This document shows, piece by piece, positions 5,636-34,257 of a DNA stretch of 34,257 bases (position 1 is its first letter; each line of letters opens with the position of its first letter). A program made the translations under genes and the position numbers. The notes under the pieces were generated by a model. The model saw only the letters and a program-made list of their open reading frames with translations. It ran no database searches and had not been told where the DNA came from. This DNA is from Oscillospiraceae bacterium. Its GTDB lineage: Bacteria; Bacillota; Clostridia; Oscillospirales; Acutalibacteraceae. The stretch lies in assembly GCA_015066225.1 (NCBI GenBank), contig SVOT01000013.1:1-34257 (forward strand), read 5' to 3'.

Positions 5636-5663
5636 TTGAATTATGGCGCAGAAATGGTATAAT
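5636..5663 (+). promoter_or_regulatory. Sigma-A promoter with extended -10, upstream of the riboswitch
   Basis: TTGAAT at 5636-5641, a 16-bp spacer, then TGGTATAAT with the -10 hexamer at 5658-5663. Transcription would start around 5670, just at the base of the riboswitch. It diverges from the spoIIA operon. Confidence 0.75.
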
Positions 5664-5674
5664 AATTATTATGT

Positions 5675-5817
5675 TATTTCGGGGAAACGGGTGAAACTCC
5701 CGTACGGGCCCGCCGCCGTGAGGTGCAATAATGCCGTTTATCTGTCCGATGCCGCAATCGGAGACACACCATTGGAGAAATCTGAGAAGGTGATAATCGG
5801 TGCACCGAGTCGAAATA
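5675..5817 (+). promoter_or_regulatory. Cobalamin riboswitch
   Basis: The core matches the B12 riboswitch pattern: GGGTGAAACTCCCGTACGGG at 5689-5708, followed by CCCGCCGCCGTGA (the CCCGCCACTGTGA-like element), then a hairpin and the CGGAGACACACC segment at 5758-5769, which corresponds to the B12-box region. TATTTCG at 5675-5681 pairs with CGAAATA at 5811-5817 to close the element as P1. It lies about 80 nt before a transcobalamin-like lipoprotein gene and an ECF S component, consistent with repression of B12 uptake by adenosylcobalamin. The expression platform is not clear; no strong terminator lies before the gene, so control of translation is likely. Confidence 0.88.
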
Positions 5818-5899
5818 CCCGGTAACAAAAATCTCTTACTAACAACAACTGCGAGCGCCGGTTTCAAAAGAGAAATAATTTATAAAGGAGAAATCCAGA

Positions 5900-21424: not shown

Positions 21425-24400
21425 TTATTGCCTTAACACAAGATTTATAACCTGCTGATAATCTGATGCATCAACAGTTCCGTCATTTGCAAAATCTGTT
21501 GCTAAAAGATAGCTATCCTGAAGCGTTACCAAACCAGATGATGCCAACTGCACCATAGCTGCATCAAGAACATCAACCACACTATCTCCGTTAACATCGC
21601 CGTAAACTACAACATTATATGTATAAACCAATGAGCCGTTTCTGAAAAAATAAAGTACAGAACCAGTTCCGTAATAGTTAGCTTCTGATGACATAGCAGA
21701 TGGAATTGCCATTACGGTGTAACTTGAATCAGCTTTCACGATTTCATCCACTTGTGTCTTAAATGTCTGATGAGTGAAAATAATTCCCGCTTCTTCATTT
21801 ATCACTGTTTTACCTACAGGAACAAGATCTAGAAGAACATACGGTATCTCATTATCTTCGGCATAACTTTGCGCATACGAACCTTCATAGCAATAAATTG
21901 TAAGATTACCACATCCGTCGAAAGCACCGTCTGCTATTTCCGTTACTGATTTGGGAATAGTAATTTTACTTATATTTGCACAACCCGAAAAACAATTATC
22001 TCCTATAGTTTCAACTGTATTGGGGATGTTAACCGAAACAACACTTGATTTATCAAGAAAAGCGTTCTCTGAAAGTGTTTTTGTTTCAAGCCCATCAATC
22101 TCCATCGGAACAGTTATATTCGCAGCAGAACCGTTATAAGCCGTAATTGTCAATGTATTTGCGTCAATTTCTTCATAACTGAAAAGTGCTGCAGGAATAA
22201 CATCAAAGTTTGTTATATCTATCATAACAGTACTTGAAAGAAGGTTATTACCTATAATAGTAAGAGCATAACTGCCGTTTTTGCTTACTGTTGCTTTCAA
22301 CGATTCTGTTACATCCTCACCGTTAAAATAAATTTTAAGATAACCTGATTCACCTGCCACAGGAACTATAGCAACATCATAAGGTGCATCAGTTTTTTCT
22401 GTAACACCGGGAATGATATAACCACTCGGTTCTAAATTATCTATCATAACTTTGTATGAGTCTGATGGTGCACTTTCAAGCCCTGCACCATTTACCGCTT
22501 TAAAACTGTAATGTGCGTTTGTGCTTTCATCAAGAACCAAAACATTTCCTTCAAGCTCATACCAACCGGTACCATCATTGTAATAATATACACAACCTGA
22601 CGGACATTCAATAAGTGTGCTTAGGGTAAATGTTACATTATCCTTTGTCCATTGACCAAATGTACCCTCAAGCTCAACCCTTATTGTAGGAATCGTTCTA
22701 TCTATATTAACTTTAATTTCATAAACATCACTTTCAAGCCCTGAATATGAAACAGCTTTAAATCCATACACAAAAGAACCACCTTCTCTTGCACGAAGTG
22801 TTTCTGTGGTGAGTTTTGTCCATTCGCCTCCGTTAATATTGTAATAATACTCATATACCCCAGAAAAAGTATCTGCTTCGGGAGTAAAATAAACTATATC
22901 ATCAGCCCAATTACCTGCAATATATTCATCGCCATCTTCTCCGCAGATTGCATTAAGTGTTGTTATAACAGGTTTTGCGTTATCTCTGACAAAACCGTCT
23001 GAATAATATGATGAAGACTCATTACCGGCTTTATCTACTGCAACGAACTCAAAATAACCTTTAAAATTTCTATCACAGATAGCTCTTACATCATCCGTTA
23101 TAGTTGTCCAATCGCTAACAGGCGTATAATCAGCACCAACAAGTCTGTATTTGATATAATCAATTCCTGCAACGCCACTGTCTTCAGCGGTTGCGTTGGC
23201 AACAAGGTCTGCACTGTAATAATGACCGAATTCACCGTCGAGATGTCTTTCGGGAGATTCTGTGGGTTCTTGGGTGAGAACAATGTCTGTTATACCGGGA
23301 ACTTCCTTATCAATATTATTAATTTCTAGTGTTTGTTCACTGTAAAGACCATTATTAGCAGTTATCTTAACTACATATTCGCCGTTTCTTTGTACAATGA
23401 AACTTAAAGCATCTGAACCAAAATCTACACCGTTAACCTCAACAGTTTTCAAACCCGAAACACTATAAACTAAATTTTCTATATTTACAGTGTAATCCTC
23501 GTTTGTAACATCGGTTACACTTTGGCTTAAAGTAAATGTTGGAGTTGTTTTATCAAGTTTAACAACTAAAGCTTCGCTTTCATCACTTTCATAGTCCATA
23601 CTATTTACAGCTTTGACATAGAAAATTGCATCTGTATCTGAATTTATTGTAAGAATATTGCCATCTATTTTATTCCATATTTCACTGTCACTCTGTCGCC
23701 AAAAATATGTTGCACCATCAAGCTGGTGTGTGCTGTCTAAAGTGAAAACAACATCTTCAGTTGTCCATTCACCCAACACACCCTCGGTGGTCACCGAAAT
23801 TACCGGTTTACCATATACAATTATCGGGAATGTAGCCTCTGCGCTACGGTCGGCGTGTTCATAAACAACCCTTACATTTTGTTCTACATCATAAGTTTCC
23901 ATTGAAAAAGATGTTTCATCTATTTCATAATCGGTTACTTCTTCACTTTCGGCATTGAGATAATTTGCAACCACCTTAAGACCTGTTGTATCAAAAGTCT
24001 CACCTTCTGCATAAACAGTTTTATCAGGCGGTGTAATTGTGATAGTATCAACCTGCTTGGAGTTGAGTGTTACAGCAAACACAGCGTTATATGTCTTACC
24101 GGCCCTTTCAACAGAAACAATAATATACTGAGTCATATCAAGGGCCTTCACATTCAAGTCACTTACCGTATAGTCAGTTACTTGACATTTGAGCATATCA
24201 TCAGTATAGCTTTCCCAATCCGAATAATACGGTGAAAGGGATTCTTTATTATAGTTTAAATAAACCTCCATACCTGTTAAATCGAGCTCTGTTTCACCCT
24301 CAATATATTCAGTTTTATCCGGTGCTTTAAGGGTAATACTCTCAGGAAGAATTTCTATTATTTCTATCTCCTTTGTTCTTTCTACATGGCTTTGCAACAA

Positions 24401-26467
24401 ATATCTGCTGAAACCATAAAGAGTTGTTGTTCCTGCTTTTTTTCCGGTAACTATTCCGTCATCGGAAACCGATGCATAATCATTTTCTGTATTTCTGTTA
24501 GAACCCATGTATGTATTCGAAGCCGTCCATGGTGCACTACCATCGTTCGTAACAAGTCCCCAATATACCGCTGATTGAGCAAGTGATTCAGGATATGTTT
24601 TCAAGGTGAATCCGTGTGGAATGTCACGAATTACATAATCGTCCCCTTCTACCTGACCGTCAGTATATTTAGAAAGATTCAGCCAACCTCTTGAGACCGT
24701 TATCGTAACACTTCTTGTAACACCTGAAATGGTAGCATACACCGCAGTTGTTCTGGATTTGTTTCTGCCTCCGGCATCACGACCCAATACAACACCATCT
24801 GAAGAAACAGATGCAACTGTATCATCTGCTACACTCCATTTTATTGTATCAAGAAGACTTGTTTCATAATTGTCAGGAGCAAGAACATTTATTGAAAGCG
24901 TCGTAGTTTCACCTTCATCAATGCTTGTTGTTCCGACAATTTCAAAATCAGTTATGGCATTTCCACAGGTTATTTCCAAAGAAGTTTCAACACTACTTGA
25001 ACCGTAAGCACCTTTAGCATAAAGTTTAGCAACACCGACGGAAACACCCGTAACATTACCAATTGAATCAACGCTTATAATACCATTGGTTGCCGGATCT
25101 TCTGCAGTTGCATAAACAACCGCACCTGAATCCTCGTCATAAACACCCCATTGGCGACTTACACTTGAAGATGTGTTAAGACGGCCGGGTGCAACTGTTG
25201 AAGTATAAGTTGCTGTTGCACCTATACCCAAAACGGTATCACCTTCAATTGTAATGTCTGTAAGTGCAGAAACAAGCTGGCGTGTAACCGTCATTTCAAT
25301 ATCTTTTGATACCCCACCCATTGTTGCTGTAATAATTACTTTTTGGGAATATGTTAAACCGTCCCCACCATTAAGACCCGTTACTACTCCACTTTGGTCA
25401 ACAGTTGCGATTGAAGAATCAGCAGAAGACCACACCAAATCACCTTGGTATGCACCCGCCGGGTTAACATTAGCAATTGAGAGTTGAGAAGTTGCACCTT
25501 CTGCAACGCTGGTTTCTCCGTTGATTTCAAAGCTTGTAACAGGCAATTCCGACGGTTCAACAACAGTAAAAGTTATTGTATCGGAAAAAGCTGCATATAA
25601 TGTACTTTCGGGATTAACTCGTATGGTCACCTCGCCTGCAGCAAGGAAAGTAACAAGCCCGTCGTTGCTTATGCGAGCATAATCAGAAGCATCACTATCA
25701 AATGCATTTTTACCTACTGCCCATTTCACACCCTGATCAAGTCTGACAGGAGTACAAGCACCGTATAGTTGAACTGTAGCCCCAACTGCAACTGTTGTAG
25801 GTACTGCCTTTTTATTTGTTATATGCACACCGGTAGGAGCAACAGAAGCAACAACACTTTTTTCAATAACAAATTCCACACTGTCGCTTCCAAGAACAGT
25901 TCCATCCGCATCATAAAGAGTTGCAGTAATAACAACATTCATATTATCAAGAAATGTACGAAGCGACTCTCCTAATGTTTCACCTGCAATACCCGACACT
26001 ATTCCAACAATAGTATCTGTACTTGCACTATCAAGATCTATCCCGGAAGATTCAAATGTTGCCCATATGGCATCAGCAGTTGTGTCGCCCACAAGAGGCA
26101 GACTTCTGATATTCTCATCAATCCAAAGCTGAATTACAGCTTTTTTTGAGAAGTCGTAAGCAGTTACCGTTCCGGCATCATCAACACCTGCAAGTAAAGG
26201 GAGGTTGCTCTCCCATTCAATATATCTTCCATCAGATGTATCAATAGCCGTACCGCTTACAGTACCATCTTCGGCTGTGGAAGGTACAAGTGCTTGTAAC
26301 TGTTGTGTTCTATATTCGGTCAGATACTGTTTTTCAGTGATTTGCACTCCGTCCTCATTAAAAACTTCAACAACACTATCTGCATAAACGCTTGTTACAG
26401 GTATGCAAGAAAGAACAAGAAAAACTGAGAGCGAATAGCTGAATACTCTTTTAATAAAGTTCTTCAT
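21425..26467 (-). CDS. Very large secreted protein with Ig-like domains, leucine-rich repeats and a dockerin-like C-terminus
   Basis: 1680 residues. Signal peptide at 1-30 (basic, then hydrophobic, ending VYADS). About 205-590 holds Big_2-type Ig-like repeats (VAVGATVQLYG, SVAEGATSQLSI, SIDEGETTTLSI, each with a W..D..VA..D..G.V core). About 705-880 has two Big_3-like units (PDKTEYIEGETELDLTGMEV, PDKTVYAEGETFDTTGLKV). About 885-1420 has repeated Ig-like modules with GEWTTEDVVFTLD / GQWTKDNVTFTLS. About 1428-1545 has BspA-type leucine-rich repeats (SVNIPNTVETIGDNCFSGC). The last 62 residues look like a type I dockerin with two Ca-loop halves, GDVNGDSVVDVLDAAMV and TDFANDGTVDASDYQQV. Probably a surface adhesin or scaffold-bound protein. 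It lies inside the tRNA-Thr-bounded region. Confidence 0.9.
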   Translation of the reverse strand: MKNFIKRVFSYSLSVFLVLSCIPVTSVYADSVVEVFNEDGVQITEKQYLTEYRTQQLQALVPSTAEDGTVSGTAIDTSDGRYIEWESNLPLLAGVDDAGTVTAYDFSKKAVIQLWIDENIRSLPLVGDTTADAIWATFESSGIDLDSASTDTIVGIVSGIAGETLGESLRTFLDNMNVVITATLYDADGTVLGSDSVEFVIEKSVVASVAPTGVHITNKKAVPTTVAVGATVQLYGACTPVRLDQGVKWAVGKNAFDSDASDYARISNDGLVTFLAAGEVTIRVNPESTLYAAFSDTITFTVVEPSELPVTSFEINGETSVAEGATSQLSIANVNPAGAYQGDLVWSSADSSIATVDQSGVVTGLNGGDGLTYSQKVIITATMGGVSKDIEMTVTRQLVSALTDITIEGDTVLGIGATATYTSTVAPGRLNTSSSVSRQWGVYDEDSGAVVYATAEDPATNGIISVDSIGNVTGVSVGVAKLYAKGAYGSSSVETSLEITCGNAITDFEIVGTTSIDEGETTTLSINVLAPDNYETSLLDTIKWSVADDTVASVSSDGVVLGRDAGGRNKSRTTAVYATISGVTRSVTITVSRGWLNLSKYTDGQVEGDDYVIRDIPHGFTLKTYPESLAQSAVYWGLVTNDGSAPWTASNTYMGSNRNTENDYASVSDDGIVTGKKAGTTTLYGFSRYLLQSHVERTKEIEIIEILPESITLKAPDKTEYIEGETELDLTGMEVYLNYNKESLSPYYSDWESYTDDMLKCQVTDYTVSDLNVKALDMTQYIIVSVERAGKTYNAVFAVTLNSKQVDTITITPPDKTVYAEGETFDTTGLKVVANYLNAESEEVTDYEIDETSFSMETYDVEQNVRVVYEHADRSAEATFPIIVYGKPVISVTTEGVLGEWTTEDVVFTLDSTHQLDGATYFWRQSDSEIWNKIDGNILTINSDTDAIFYVKAVNSMDYESDESEALVVKLDKTTPTFTLSQSVTDVTNEDYTVNIENLVYSVSGLKTVEVNGVDFGSDALSFIVQRNGEYVVKITANNGLYSEQTLEINNIDKEVPGITDIVLTQEPTESPERHLDGEFGHYYSADLVANATAEDSGVAGIDYIKYRLVGADYTPVSDWTTITDDVRAICDRNFKGYFEFVAVDKAGNESSSYYSDGFVRDNAKPVITTLNAICGEDGDEYIAGNWADDIVYFTPEADTFSGVYEYYYNINGGEWTKLTTETLRAREGGSFVYGFKAVSYSGLESDVYEIKVNIDRTIPTIRVELEGTFGQWTKDNVTFTLSTLIECPSGCVYYYNDGTGWYELEGNVLVLDESTNAHYSFKAVNGAGLESAPSDSYKVMIDNLEPSGYIIPGVTEKTDAPYDVAIVPVAGESGYLKIYFNGEDVTESLKATVSKNGSYALTIIGNNLLSSTVMIDITNFDVIPAALFSYEEIDANTLTITAYNGSAANITVPMEIDGLETKTLSENAFLDKSSVVSVNIPNTVETIGDNCFSGCANISKITIPKSVTEIADGAFDGCGNLTIYCYEGSYAQSYAEDNEIPYVLLDLVPVGKTVINEEAGIIFTHQTFKTQVDEIVKADSSYTVMAIPSAMSSEANYYGTGSVLYFFRNGSLVYTYNVVVYGDVNGDSVVDVLDAAMVQLASSGLVTLQDSYLLATDFANDGTVDASDYQQVINLVLRQ

Positions 26468-32016: not shown

Positions 32017-32031
32017 ATGTGCGGTGATAAT

Positions 32032-32826
32032 ATGAAATTTGAAAAAGTGCTTCTCGCATCCGATTTTGACGGCACGCTGAAAAACGATGACGGCAAAATC
32101 ACAGATGATGTTATTTCCGCAATCAGATATTTTATGGCTGAGGGTGGTCTGTTTACGGTTTGCACGGGGCGTATTTATCAGGGCTTTCACCTCTACAGCC
32201 CCGAATATATCAATGCACCCGTTCTTTTGGGCAACGGCGCCATGGCGTATGATTACGAAAATGACAAGGTTATTTTCAACGATGCAATCGGTGACGAGGG
32301 GCTTGAAGCAATAAACGATGTTTTGAAAGCATTCCCCGGCACCTCTGTTGAATTTTATAATTTCAACGAGGTTTGCTCGCTTAATCTCAACAACCATTCA
32401 GAACAGCATTTCACAAGTCAAGGTATTGACTTCAAAAGAATAAATTCCCCCGAAGAAGCTCCCCGCCCCTGGACAAAGGTTATGATTCTTGCCCACGGCA
32501 AATCCGCCGAGGTTCAAAGAATTTTAGATTTGCACCCGGAGGTAAATTACCTTAAAACAACCGGCGATTATGTGGAAGTTTTGAAAAAAGGTGTGGATAA
32601 AGGTACAGGGCTTTTAAAGCTTGCAAGGGCTCTTGGTTGCAAAGAAACTGACACCTACGCCGCAGGTGATGGCTATAACGATGTTGAAATGCTTGTTGCG
32701 GCACAGGGCGGTTTCGTCCCCGAAAACGGTTCAAAGGAAGCCCTTGCTGTTGCAAAACACATAACAAGGTCAAACAATGATGGTTGCATAGCACATGCGA
32801 TTAAAATACTTGACGAGATATATTAA
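32032..32826 (+). CDS. Cof-type HAD-superfamily hydrolase
   Basis: About 264 residues. Likely a phosphatase acting on sugar phosphates or other small phosphorylated metabolites. Motif I is LASDFDGTLKNDDGKI, the TGR of motif II is in VCTGRIYQG, the motif III Lys is in KKGVDKGTGL, and motif IV is AAGDGYNDVEML. The C2-type cap domain lies between. An upstream in-frame ATG at 32017 directly follows the predicted -10, so the ATG at 32032 is preferred. The substrate cannot be told. Confidence 0.93.
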   Translation: MKFEKVLLASDFDGTLKNDDGKITDDVISAIRYFMAEGGLFTVCTGRIYQGFHLYSPEYINAPVLLGNGAMAYDYENDKVIFNDAIGDEGLEAINDVLKAFPGTSVEFYNFNEVCSLNLNNHSEQHFTSQGIDFKRINSPEEAPRPWTKVMILAHGKSAEVQRILDLHPEVNYLKTTGDYVEVLKKGVDKGTGLLKLARALGCKETDTYAAGDGYNDVEMLVAAQGGFVPENGSKEALAVAKHITRSNNDGCIAHAIKILDEIY

Positions 32827-32866: not shown

Positions 32867-33697
32867 TTAATCTGCTTTAATTTTTGCTTCCTTACCCTCT
32901 TTTAAAAGCTGTTTGAGAGTTACGGGGTCGTTGTTTTTCATTGCATCGCTGTATTTCTGAAGTTCTGATATTATGTTATCGAGCTCGAAAATGAGATTAT
33001 CTTTATTGTCAAGAAAAAGCTCTGTCCACATATCCTCATTAAGGTAGGCAACACGGGTAAGGTCTTTGTAGCTGCCTGCAGAAATGCCTTTTCGTTCAAT
33101 GGCAGACGGGCTTTTAACAAAAGCATTTGAAACCACGTGAGCCAGCTGTGAAGTAAATGCAATAAGTTTATCGTGCTTCTGAGGTGTCATAACAGAAACT
33201 CTGCCAAACCCAAGCTTCATAATAACCTCACGTGCGTTTGCAAGTGTTAAAATATCCTCATTCTCCTTAGGAGTGAGAACAAACGGTGCATTGTAAAACA
33301 TTGTATCCTTTGAGTTTTCAAATCCCGAAAATTGTGTACCTGCCATTGGGTGACCGCCAACAAAAGAAAAATTGTGCTTTTCTGCAATTTCAAAGCATTT
33401 CTCGCACACAGAGCGTTTTACACCGGCGCAATCAATCACAGTAGCTCCATCTTTAAAATTAGCGGCGTTTTTTTCAACAAATTCAACAACCGCTTCGGGG
33501 TAAAGGGGGATAAAAATATAGTCACAGGTTAAAATTCGCTTTTCAGTCAATTCGCCGTCGATGCTTTTTTCATTAATAGCACTTTTGATTACACTCTCAG
33601 ATATATCATAGCCGTAAACTTTGAAACCTGTATTCTTTTTAGCGGATTTTGCAATAGAGCCACCAATAAGGCCAAGACCAACAACACCAATGTTCAT
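32867..33697 (-). CDS. tyrA: Prephenate dehydrogenase
   Basis: NAD(P)-dependent oxidative decarboxylation of prephenate to 4-hydroxyphenylpyruvate, the committed step to tyrosine. 276 residues. The Rossmann motif is GVVGLGLIGGSIAKS at the N-terminus; the catalytic His is in GGHPMAGTQFSGFENS; a helical dimerisation domain follows. There is no C-terminal ACT domain as in Bacillus TyrA (about 370 residues), so direct feedback inhibition through ACT is unlikely. This agrees with the attenuator found in its leader, which would sense tyrosine at the level of charged tRNA. Confidence 0.95.
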   Translation of the reverse strand: MNIGVVGLGLIGGSIAKSAKKNTGFKVYGYDISESVIKSAINEKSIDGELTEKRILTCDYIFIPLYPEAVVEFVEKNAANFKDGATVIDCAGVKRSVCEKCFEIAEKHNFSFVGGHPMAGTQFSGFENSKDTMFYNAPFVLTPKENEDILTLANAREVIMKLGFGRVSVMTPQKHDKLIAFTSQLAHVVSNAFVKSPSAIERKGISAGSYKDLTRVAYLNEDMWTELFLDNKDNLIFELDNIISELQKYSDAMKNNDPVTLKQLLKEGKEAKIKAD

Positions 33698-33718
33698 AAA
33701 AAACCTCCAACAATAAAA

Positions 33719-33754
33719 TAAAAAAATCCCTTGCAGTGATTATACTGCAAGGGA
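33719..33754 (-). terminator. Attenuator terminator in the tyrA leader
   Basis: On the minus strand TCCCTTGCAG pairs with CTGCAAGGGA (33727-33754), then T-run (33719-33726), all before the tyrA start. A competing antiterminator exists: AGTGATT (plus 33781-33787) can pair with AATCACT (plus 33735-33741) in the loop and 3' arm of this hairpin. Confidence 0.9.
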
Positions 33755-33792
33755 ATCAAACGACTAAAAACAGCAGCACAAATCACTATTAC

Positions 33793-33846
33793 TTATTGAG
33801 TTAAGTAATAGTAATAATAGTATGTAGCTGTATTGAACTGTTTCAT
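33793..33846 (-). CDS. Tyrosine-rich leader peptide of the tyrA attenuator
   Basis: 17 codons: MKQFNTATYYYYYYLTQ, with six consecutive Tyr codons (TAC TAT TAT TAC TAT TAC). GAGG lies 9 nt before the ATG. The last Tyr codons form one arm (plus 33802-33811) of a perfect 10-bp hairpin with plus 33786-33795, which covers the end of the leader ORF. When Tyr-tRNA is scarce a ribosome stalled on the Tyr run would open this hairpin and free the adjacent segment to form the antiterminator; when it is plentiful the terminator forms. Its role is regulatory; the peptide itself needs no function. Confidence 0.93.
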   Translation of the reverse strand: MKQFNTATYYYYYYLTQ

Positions 33847-33873
33847 AACCGTTAACCTCTCATTTTTTTCTTG

Positions 33874-33902
33874 ATTTTAACACCATAATAAGCATTTGTC
33901 AA
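33874..33902 (-). promoter_or_regulatory. Promoter of the tyrA leader transcript
   Basis: TTGACA (33897-33902), 17-bp spacer, TAAAAT (33874-33879) on the minus strand. Transcription would begin near 33867, about 20 nt before the leader-peptide ATG. Confidence 0.85.
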
Positions 33903-34090
33903 TATCGATTCGTTGAATTATTCCGATGTTAGCCATCGATATTTTCGATTAAACAAGATATCGAAAATTCGCAAATTCAATCTGCCATAAATTGTTGAGG
34001 AAAATTTGATGAAGTTGCGTGAATTGAGAGCTGAAGCTGTACAAAGGTACTGCGAAGCAAGTAAACACGCAAATCCGCAAATTAACCAAC
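33903..34090. other. Spacer between the rRNA operon and tyrA
   Basis: AT-rich, with scattered partial repeats of TATCGA and CGCAAAT. A 39-codon plus-strand frame begins at 34009 with a GAGG upstream, but it runs into the rRNA terminator hairpin and I do not call it a gene. Confidence 0.5.
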
Positions 34091-34120
34091 AAAAAAGAAC
34101 TCCAGCCAATGCTGAAGTTC
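34091..34120 (-). terminator. rRNA operon terminator
   Basis: On the minus strand GAACTTCAGC pairs with GCTGGAGTTC (one G-U), followed by TTTTTT. It lies about 57 nt beyond the 23S 3' end. Confidence 0.85.
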
Positions 34121-34176
34121 ATCTCTAGTAATATACCCTGAAAACTGAACAAAGTCAAGCGAAGAAACAAACGAAA

Positions 34177-34257
34177 TGGTCAAGCCCTCGACCTATTAGT
34201 ACTGCTTAGCTGAACATGTCACCATGCTTACACACGCAGCCTATCAACCTCATAGTC
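34177..34257 (-). rRNA. 23S ribosomal RNA, 3' end (partial)
   Basis: The reverse complement reads GACTATGAGGTTGATAGGCT at the window edge and ends with ACTAATAGGTCGAGGGCTTG then ACC, the conserved 3' terminus of bacterial 23S rRNA. The exact 3' end is approximate (near 34177). The gene continues beyond the window. No 5S gene follows before the terminator. Confidence 0.95.

Follow-up and report, generated by a model that had tools for sequence, protein, structure and literature searches.

What controls tyrA, the prephenate dehydrogenase gene, in an Oscillospiraceae bacterium of the class Clostridia is the question raised by the DNA analyzed here, a stretch of 34,257 nucleotides (contig SVOT01000013.1 of assembly GCA_015066225.1) that we refer to as the window. 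T-boxes and TRAP are the devices usually named for Firmicutes, and leader-peptide attenuation has mostly been described from Proteobacteria and Actinobacteria. PMC2965389 partly backs this split between the phyla. A model that saw the letters and their open reading frames (the sequence-only reading) had nevertheless proposed a complete ribosome-mediated tyrosine attenuator in front of tyrA.

A candidate tyrosine attenuator upstream of tyrA

Reading the minus strand from 33902 to 33720, we found all of the proposed attenuator elements in the proposed order, namely promoter, Shine-Dalgarno sequence, leader, anti-antiterminator, antiterminator and intrinsic terminator, followed by tyrA (Table 1). 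The 17-codon leader with its six consecutive Tyr codons was exactly as described, and the promoter, the ribosome binding site and the terminator with its T-run were likewise located; the terminator stem pairs 33753-33744 with 33737-33728 and gains a U-A pair at 33754/33727. Two of the proposed helices turned out to be longer. The hairpin that takes in the Tyr codons exists but measures 14 bp (33815-33802 with 33795-33782) and not 10 bp, and the antiterminator does pair 33787-33781 with 33741-33735 but continues in 33777-33773/33748-33744 (7+5 bp). The overlap between the alternative pairings is real as well, and larger than the two bases that had been implied. Since an arm of the 1:2 hairpin takes in six of the seven bases of 33787-33781, the competition between the structures should be stronger than a two-base overlap would allow.

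Table 1. Coordinates of the tyrA leader elements and adjoining genes in the window.
Feature	Position	Strand	Basis
-35 hexamer TTGACA	33897..33902	-	sequence read, promoter scan
-10 hexamer TAAAAT, 17-bp spacer, TG just upstream	33874..33879	-	promoter scan
Shine-Dalgarno sequence GAGAGG of leader ORF	33856..33861	-	sequence
Leader ORF MKQFNTATYYYYYYLTQ, 17 codons plus stop	33793..33846	-	ATG at 33846, TAA 33795-33793
Six consecutive Tyr codons (putative sensor)	33805..33822	-	translation of leader frame
Segment 1, spanning Tyr codons 3-6 and a Leu codon; 5' arm of the 14-bp anti-antiterminator	33802..33815	-	folding, alignment
Segment 2, 3' arm of the 1:2 hairpin; first 3 nt are the stop codon	33782..33795	-	folding, alignment
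Lower 4-bp helix of the 1:2 structure, 5' arm; partner 33777-33774	33827..33830	-	folding, alignment
Antiterminator 5' strand AGUGAUU; partner 33741-33735	33781..33787	-	folding, alignment
Antiterminator 5' strand, second part GCUGC; partner 33748-33744	33773..33777	-	folding, alignment
Segment 3, antiterminator 3' strand GCAGU..AAUCACU, within terminator	33735..33748	-	folding, alignment
Intrinsic terminator stem-loop (3:4)	33727..33754	-	folding, alignment, terminator scan
Terminator T-run	33720..33726	-	sequence, terminator scan
tyrA, prephenate dehydrogenase, PDH_N+PDH_C	32867..33697	-	domain search
HAD hydrolase, next gene after tyrA, opposite strand	32020-32826	+	domain search

The promoter agrees with the consensus at 11 of 12 bases, and its exact pattern occurs once in the window against an expectation of 0.16. 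A looser scan of 33690-34257 returned two sites compared with 1.8 in shuffled sequence, so the promoter call rests on match quality and place and not on counts. The same interval holds four terminator-like sites (0.3 in shuffles). The 161-nt leader RNA folds with -48.7 kcal/mol against -26.1 kcal/mol (sd 3.7) for shuffled versions, a z-score of -6.1, and none of 200 shuffles was as stable. Throughout the 2.04-Mb genome, a run of five Tyr codons was encountered solely in this leader (two overlapping matches); a backward-pattern control gave one match. Judged by its letters, the locus therefore appears to hold what a leader-peptide attenuator should have: a promoter followed by a short ORF that looks translatable (start, Shine-Dalgarno sequence and stop), a run of codons for the presumed product of the regulated gene, and a predicted intrinsic terminator between leader and gene.

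As for the enzyme itself, TyrA contains PDH_N and PDH_C, and no ACT domain turned up at an E-value of 0.001, which bears out what the sequence-only reading had said of it. That the attenuator may be the main tyrosine control, as was also suggested there, is a conjecture. A DAHP synthase of the type found at the aroF loci described below had no match in the window's genome.

Upstream of the attenuator, and in the same direction, lie the end of a 23S rRNA gene (34176-34257, minus strand) and an intrinsic terminator (34120-34097, minus strand); apparently the same post-rRNA sequence precedes tyrA in some relatives. By eye, a repeat of the form TCGAAAAYATCGAT ... TCGATWTTGACA-like can be made out at 33897-33948 (minus strand), reaching the -35 region, and also upstream of tyrA at two same-genus loci that have no attenuator (L010, L011). 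It is possibly an operator. Elsewhere in the window there are a cobalamin riboswitch (5658-5840, plus strand, 48.7 bits) and an open frame of 1680 codons (21425-26467, minus strand).

T-boxes elsewhere in the genome

T-boxes sense tRNA charging by binding the tRNA directly and have no leader ORF. Were a T-box, a riboswitch or a TRAP-like site the sensor at the tyrA leader, the peptide would be incidental, and the genome is not short of such elements: it has nine T-box matches (L072-L080), four of them above threshold. These four precede pheS, thrS, a relative of 2-isopropylmalate synthase and one further gene, while the matches below threshold precede trpB, alaS, an ileS fragment, aspS and a relative of acyl-CoA ligases. 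(Among the eight T-box-downstream genes compared with NCBIfam, pheS, thrS, trpB, alaS and aspS scored over the cut-off, and the ileS fragment and the relatives of 2-isopropylmalate synthase and acyl-CoA ligase below it.) None of the nine is on the tyrA contig, however, and the T-box covariance model (RF00230) has no match at the tyrA locus. Nor does any Rfam family reach threshold in the leader, where the best score is 29.3 bits against a cut-off of 60 and the amino-acid operon leaders stay below threshold (Thr_leader 20.1 of 55 bits, Leu_leader 18.6 of 50 bits). Ten aroF-type loci were also without an Rfam match over threshold. Going by these T-box and Rfam searches, a different RNA sensor at this leader is the least probable of the readings considered here, with hardly any chance of being correct. 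With nine T-box matches elsewhere in the genome and none at tyrA, T-boxes and the leader peptide probably coexist.

The tyrosine leader within the genus

The sequence-only reading had looked to related leaders for support, and the comparison provided it for the most part. Counting each genome once, a Tyr leader precedes tyrA in 9 of the 22 genomes of the genus, the window's own included (G000, G002, G006, G007, G008, G012, G013, G015 and G020); it has five or six Tyr codons and comes with the hairpins and the terminator. The 20 bases GTAATAGTGATTTGTGCTGC, which lie right behind the leader stop or overlap it, are identical in eight of the nine and differ by one base in G012. Phe directly follows the Tyr run in three of the nine leaders, and the residues before the run are fairly alike (NFAAT, NFAVT and NFSVT in several). 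On the other hand, G001 and G018 keep a TyrA that is 75% identical with a promoter directly in front of the gene and no leader, so the switch is dispensable in evolution.

The remaining genomes differ in their gene content. Three (G004, G009 and G019) have aroF directly before tyrA and a mixed Tyr/Phe leader before aroF, tyrA is cut by a contig end in G005, and G016 has just a 34% relative. No clear tyrA was found in six genomes of the genus (G003, G010, G011, G014, G017 and G021), which may be Tyr auxotrophs, may have replaced the gene or may have assembly gaps; G010 is 95% complete.

That pheA in this genus stands under a Phe leader of its own was considered and rejected after 13 of the 17 pheA loci had been read. 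At ten of the 13, pheA lies right behind another gene (an aminotransferase, by eye) and has no such leader; the aromatic short ORFs flagged at L149 and L150 are inside the gene upstream of pheA, and no Phe leader precedes pheA at L140 or L141. The exception is G004 (L145), where a possible aromatic leader, MIRTAYFFNRFMYYISADRLRA, starts 158 bases before pheA. Behind it, to judge by eye, come a GC-rich hairpin and a T-run, an arrangement unlike the tyrA/aroF scaffold. A match of G009 to the 14-mer of segment 2 was set aside as chance; it falls within a long open reading frame that by eye encodes a glycosidase.

Relatives in the family, order and class

Beyond the genus, we searched with covariance models built during this work from 9 (R1), 19 (R2) and 37 (R3) sequences, whose E-values are rough. 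In genome tallies that include uncounted false matches, R1 matched 23 of 398 family genomes at an E-value of 0.1, R2 matched 64 of 398 (38 of 135 genera) at 0.05, and R3 matched 79 of 394 order genomes and 39 of 391 class genomes at 0.01 and 5 of 284 phylum genomes at 0.001, with the window's own genome included in each of the R3 counts. Inspection covered the returned loci and nine secondary copies. Of the 24 R1 matches, 16 loci were inspected: an aromatic leader preceded DAHP synthase at ten, and the other six (L098, L101, L105, L106, L107 and L110) were dropped when no leader was seen. All 15 of the further loci inspected for R2 had Tyr/Phe leaders before DAHP synthase. For R3, leaders were present at 53 of the 56 order and class loci inspected (51 before DAHP synthase, 2 before pheA), while L205, L211 and L212 were dropped for having none; because L205 had reached an E-value of 2.2e-5, values near 1e-5 are not safe. 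The phylum search yielded leaders before DAHP synthase at two of four loci, the other two (L234 and L235) being dropped for lack of a leader. These searches support the view that the attenuator is no oddity of a single genome, as apparent relatives, mostly with leaders containing both Tyr and Phe, occur in other genera of the family and in the order and class.

At the 28 loci of the aroF type (those of G004, G009 and G019 among them), DAHP synthase was identified by tblastn in every case and TyrA in 25, the other three sequences ending early. Seven aroF operons were fetched (G087, G422, G009, G407, G538, G052 and G1042), and in all seven tblastn placed TyrA next and PheA about 5 kb past the aroF start; by eye, the genes between tyrA and pheA resemble aroB, aroA and aroC.

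The first genes behind the nine secondary copies were aroF, tyrA, pheA, tyrS, a phenylacetate-CoA-ligase-like gene, two acetolactate synthases and two 2-isopropylmalate synthases. The four copies before the acetolactate synthase and 2-isopropylmalate synthase genes have leader ORFs rich in Ile, Leu and Val (L217, L218 (G618), L220 (G539) and L222 (G507)) and are likely to be branched-chain leader-peptide attenuators. At L215 (G1105), the leader MTTFLRNRSHKQAYYYLFS precedes a tyrosyl-tRNA synthetase gene, and this copy is possibly a Tyr leader-peptide attenuator of the synthetase. A leader rich in Phe, Tyr and Leu, MFLSVLFVFICLYFYFFAFLFCKSKSVLCCG, stands before the phenylacetate-CoA-ligase-like gene at L214 (G871), which scores under the NCBIfam cut-off.

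Leader codons match the downstream gene

To relate leader to gene, Tyr and Phe were counted in the densest 7-residue core of each leader. The ten leaders that immediately precede tyrA (nine from the genus plus L219) contain 56 Tyr and 3 Phe in total, whereas the two loci at which pheA stands without TyrA in the sequence at hand (L207, L216) contain 0 Tyr and 10 Phe. The one pheA-first operon with TyrA downstream (L195/L231) has 4 Tyr and 3 Phe, and the core of the one tyrS leader has 3 Tyr and 1 Phe. Before aroF (82 loci), at least two of each residue are present in 71 cores, and three cores are not mixed (L137, L192 and L208). When tyrA and aroF loci are compared for cores with no more than one Phe, a Fisher exact test gives p 2.6e-8, a value to be taken as a guide because the loci are related.

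The reading frame is conserved along with the codons. Across the 37 attenuators that were aligned (9 tyrA-type and 28 aroF-type, window included), an ATG ORF preceded by an SD-like site occupies the Tyr/Phe frame in 36, and the remaining locus, L137, has a GTG start; the other two frames have an ATG ORF in 3 (2 with SD) and 2 (1 with SD). These figures should be read with the sampling in mind, as leader ORFs of this set and of the order and class loci were chosen by Tyr/Phe density, and gathering loci with covariance models selects for similarity.

Conservation and covariation of the alternative helices

The three helices are well preserved among the 37 aligned sequences. The percentage of cells paired is 94.6% for the terminator, 85.4% for the 1:2 hairpin and 83.5% for the antiterminator, compared with at most 44%, 63% and 51% for slid versions, although drawing the helices from the window itself favors them over such controls. 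Cells in which both bases have changed number 63, 24 and 10, respectively, against shuffled means of 16.7, 11.6 and 3.8, these being counts of sequences and not of events. For all three helices, none of 500 shuffles matched the percentage paired or the double-change cells; counted by pairs instead of cells, double changes exceeded the shuffles for none of the three (121, 367 and 172 of 500). Against the slid controls, covariation is strong for the terminator (63 double-change cells compared with 17 or fewer) and fair for the 1:2 hairpin (24 compared with up to 22, and a score of 0.241 compared with at most 0.138). The antiterminator has 10 double-change cells, with 11 and 12 in slid versions, and a covariation score of 0.117, near the slid 0.103 and 0.109. 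What speaks for this helix is the percentage paired together with a partner-swap test, its pair-count covariation being weak.

In the swap test, cognate duplexes of segments 2 and 3 averaged -15.98 kcal/mol, compared with -12.31 kcal/mol (sd 0.44) when partners were swapped between genera, and none of 500 permutations of segment 2 was as good as the cognate set, with related loci counted as separate. At five loci (L035, L096, L099, L131 and L138) the cognate duplex was no better than middling among the swapped ones. Against mononucleotide shuffles, 2 of the 37 antiterminators (L097, L131) and 7 of the 37 1:2 hairpins did not stand out. The terminator was found by script at 36 of the 37 loci and set by hand at L116. 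Taken together, two mutually exclusive choices, 1:2 against 2:3 and 2:3 against 3:4, appear to be conserved in the relatives.

The clearest individual example comes from alignment column pair 37/66. In the window it involves the middle base of Tyr codon 5, and the column is codon position two in all 37 rows. Tyr is read in 15 rows, 13 of which have U opposite (A-U), and Phe in 21, of which 18 have A opposite (U-A) and 3 have G (U-G); three rows are unpaired, one of them reading Ile. Conversely, all 13 A-U rows read Tyr, and all 18 U-A and 3 U-G rows read Phe. Both states occur within the genus, Tyr with U at the nine tyrA loci and Phe with A in G004, G009 and G019. The sensed codon and its pairing partner change together at this position.

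A constitutive terminator behind a Tyr-rich ORF that arose by chance, with tyrA read by leakage or from another promoter, would leave this joint change without a cause. It would equally fail to account for the conserved frame and Tyr run, for a segment 2 of 20 bases that eight of the nine genomes share unchanged, for mutually exclusive helices kept in 37 sequences, for a codon content that tracks the gene, and for the lack of a further Tyr5 run in the genome. We consider it very unlikely, even though G001 and G018 manage without a leader and the end of an rRNA gene, with an intrinsic terminator, lies upstream of the region.

A proposed kinetic switch set by the position of the ribosome

The effect of a ribosome on the leader RNA was modeled by masking the bases it would cover. 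With any of Tyr codons 1 to 6 in the A site, the probability of the antiterminator in the window at the stage when segment 3 emerges is 0.82 for its 7-bp part and 0.99-1.0 for its 5-bp part, whereas with no ribosome or with the ribosome on the stop codon it is 0.00-0.01. Over the 37 loci, the stalled state exceeds the ribosome-free state by at least 4 pairs in 32 and the state with a ribosome on the stop by at least 4 pairs in 34. Both controls are passed at 30 loci, and seven fail one or both. Once the RNA is full length, the terminator is always the more stable fold in the model, and a stalled ribosome does not alter this (0.99). The switch must therefore be kinetic and decided during transcription. 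According to the model, then, a stalled ribosome would free segment 2 and a terminating ribosome would mask it.

The following sequence of events is envisaged. When Tyr-tRNA is ample, the ribosome would pass the six Tyr codons and reach the UAA in segment 2, where it would either cover that segment or let 1:2 re-form; the 3:4 terminator would then fold and transcription in the cell would stop near 33720. A shortage of Tyr-tRNA would instead stall the ribosome on the Tyr codons, where it would block segment 1. Segment 2 could then pair with segment 3 ahead of the terminator's completion, and RNA polymerase would continue into tyrA. If the leader is not translated at all, 1:2 should form and the terminator should win.

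Stalling might in principle have another cause. In a TnaC-like nascent-peptide arrest, the tyrA leader peptide itself would stall translation with tyrosine as a ligand in the ribosome, and not because of an empty A site. The fairly similar residues before the Tyr run within the genus would suit such a mechanism, but across genera N-termini and lengths vary while the Tyr/Phe content persists. Moreover, a ligand-induced stall would need the opposite wiring, since stalling in the model predicts read-through of a biosynthetic gene. Arrest of this kind accordingly has very little probability. Given the architecture, its conservation, the joint change of codon and partner, the match between codons and gene, and the thermodynamic behavior of the switch, the element is very probably a ribosome-mediated leader-peptide attenuator, one that regulates tyrA by sensing charged tRNA-Tyr. 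The central claim of the sequence-only reading therefore stands as the best account of the locus, with the Tyr run and alternative helices kept in relatives and the codon content following the downstream gene.

A possible retunable scaffold for aromatic amino-acid genes

The tyrA attenuator would descend from a family of Clostridia attenuators that mostly precede aroF and have mixed Tyr/Phe leaders, the operons that were read containing tyrA and pheA as well. We infer both common descent and a direction of change: an aroF-tyrA-...-pheA operon with a Tyr+Phe leader would have lost aroF in this subclade of the genus, and the Phe codons of the leader would have become Tyr. Such a history fits the three genus members (G004, G009, G019) that keep aroF and the mixed leader, and loss of aroF with Phe-to-Tyr recoding in the subclade is likely.

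A broader proposal, which we favor by a little over even chances, is that a single RNA scaffold of common descent serves as a retunable aromatic attenuator across much of the Clostridia. Mixed Tyr+Phe leaders would be two-input sensors for aroF-tyrA-...-pheA operons, and where these broke up the leader would have been recoded by Phe/Tyr swaps, with segment 2 changing to compensate. The outcome would be switches that respond to Tyr at tyrA, to Phe at pheA and perhaps to Tyr at tyrS. If so, leader peptides would be, alongside T-boxes, a main control of amino-acid genes in these bacteria. In any case, the Tyr leader and its Tyr/Phe relatives precede aromatic amino-acid genes in many Clostridia genomes, and their sequence signature can be used to annotate aromatic amino-acid control there. 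They also amount to a natural experiment in changing the input of a regulatory RNA, as the codon shifts between Phe and Tyr and the pairing partner shifts with it.

Comparison with known systems

The classical amino-acid leader-peptide attenuators of Proteobacteria, described in PMC9413887 and PMC2659441, share with the tyrA leader a short ORF enriched in codons for the amino acid that the pathway makes, the 1:2, 2:3 and 3:4 hairpins, and a terminator before the gene. Unlike them, the element described here combines Tyr codons with tyrA, is found in a Clostridia host and has no Rfam leader family at threshold. Within the Firmicutes, His leader attenuators are reported for bacilli, Peptostreptococcaceae with Lutispora, and Erysipelotrichales in passages of PMC2965389 and PMC9413887. 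They too use leader-peptide attenuation in place of a T-box, but they belong to histidine genes, and those passages mention no aromatic leader. The leucine-rich attenuator peptide of Staphylococcus aureus (PMC5794164) is another leader-peptide attenuator of a Firmicute, but one for leucine and branched-chain genes. T-box riboswitches (RF00230), for their part, have matches before other amino-acid genes in this genome and not at tyrA.

The closest published idea to the aroF-type relatives, compared by description and not by sequence, is uORFC-13-1 (PMC8632094), a uORF with a terminator upstream of aroF that is thought to sense Phe incorporation. According to the section on it in that paper, it comprises 24 examples from Acholeplasma and unassigned environmental sequences with at least one Phe codon, and, unlike the tyrA leader, it is described there without tyrA or a Tyr run. 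A Tyr leader in Clostridia was not among the literature matches listed, which mostly leave subscription journals uncovered, including the 2010 comparative survey by Lopatovskaya and colleagues cited in PMC4833913, and this coverage makes any claim of novelty provisional. The mechanism is classical; what looks new is the Tyr specificity, together with the RNA scaffold and the spread and retuning of that scaffold among Clostridia.
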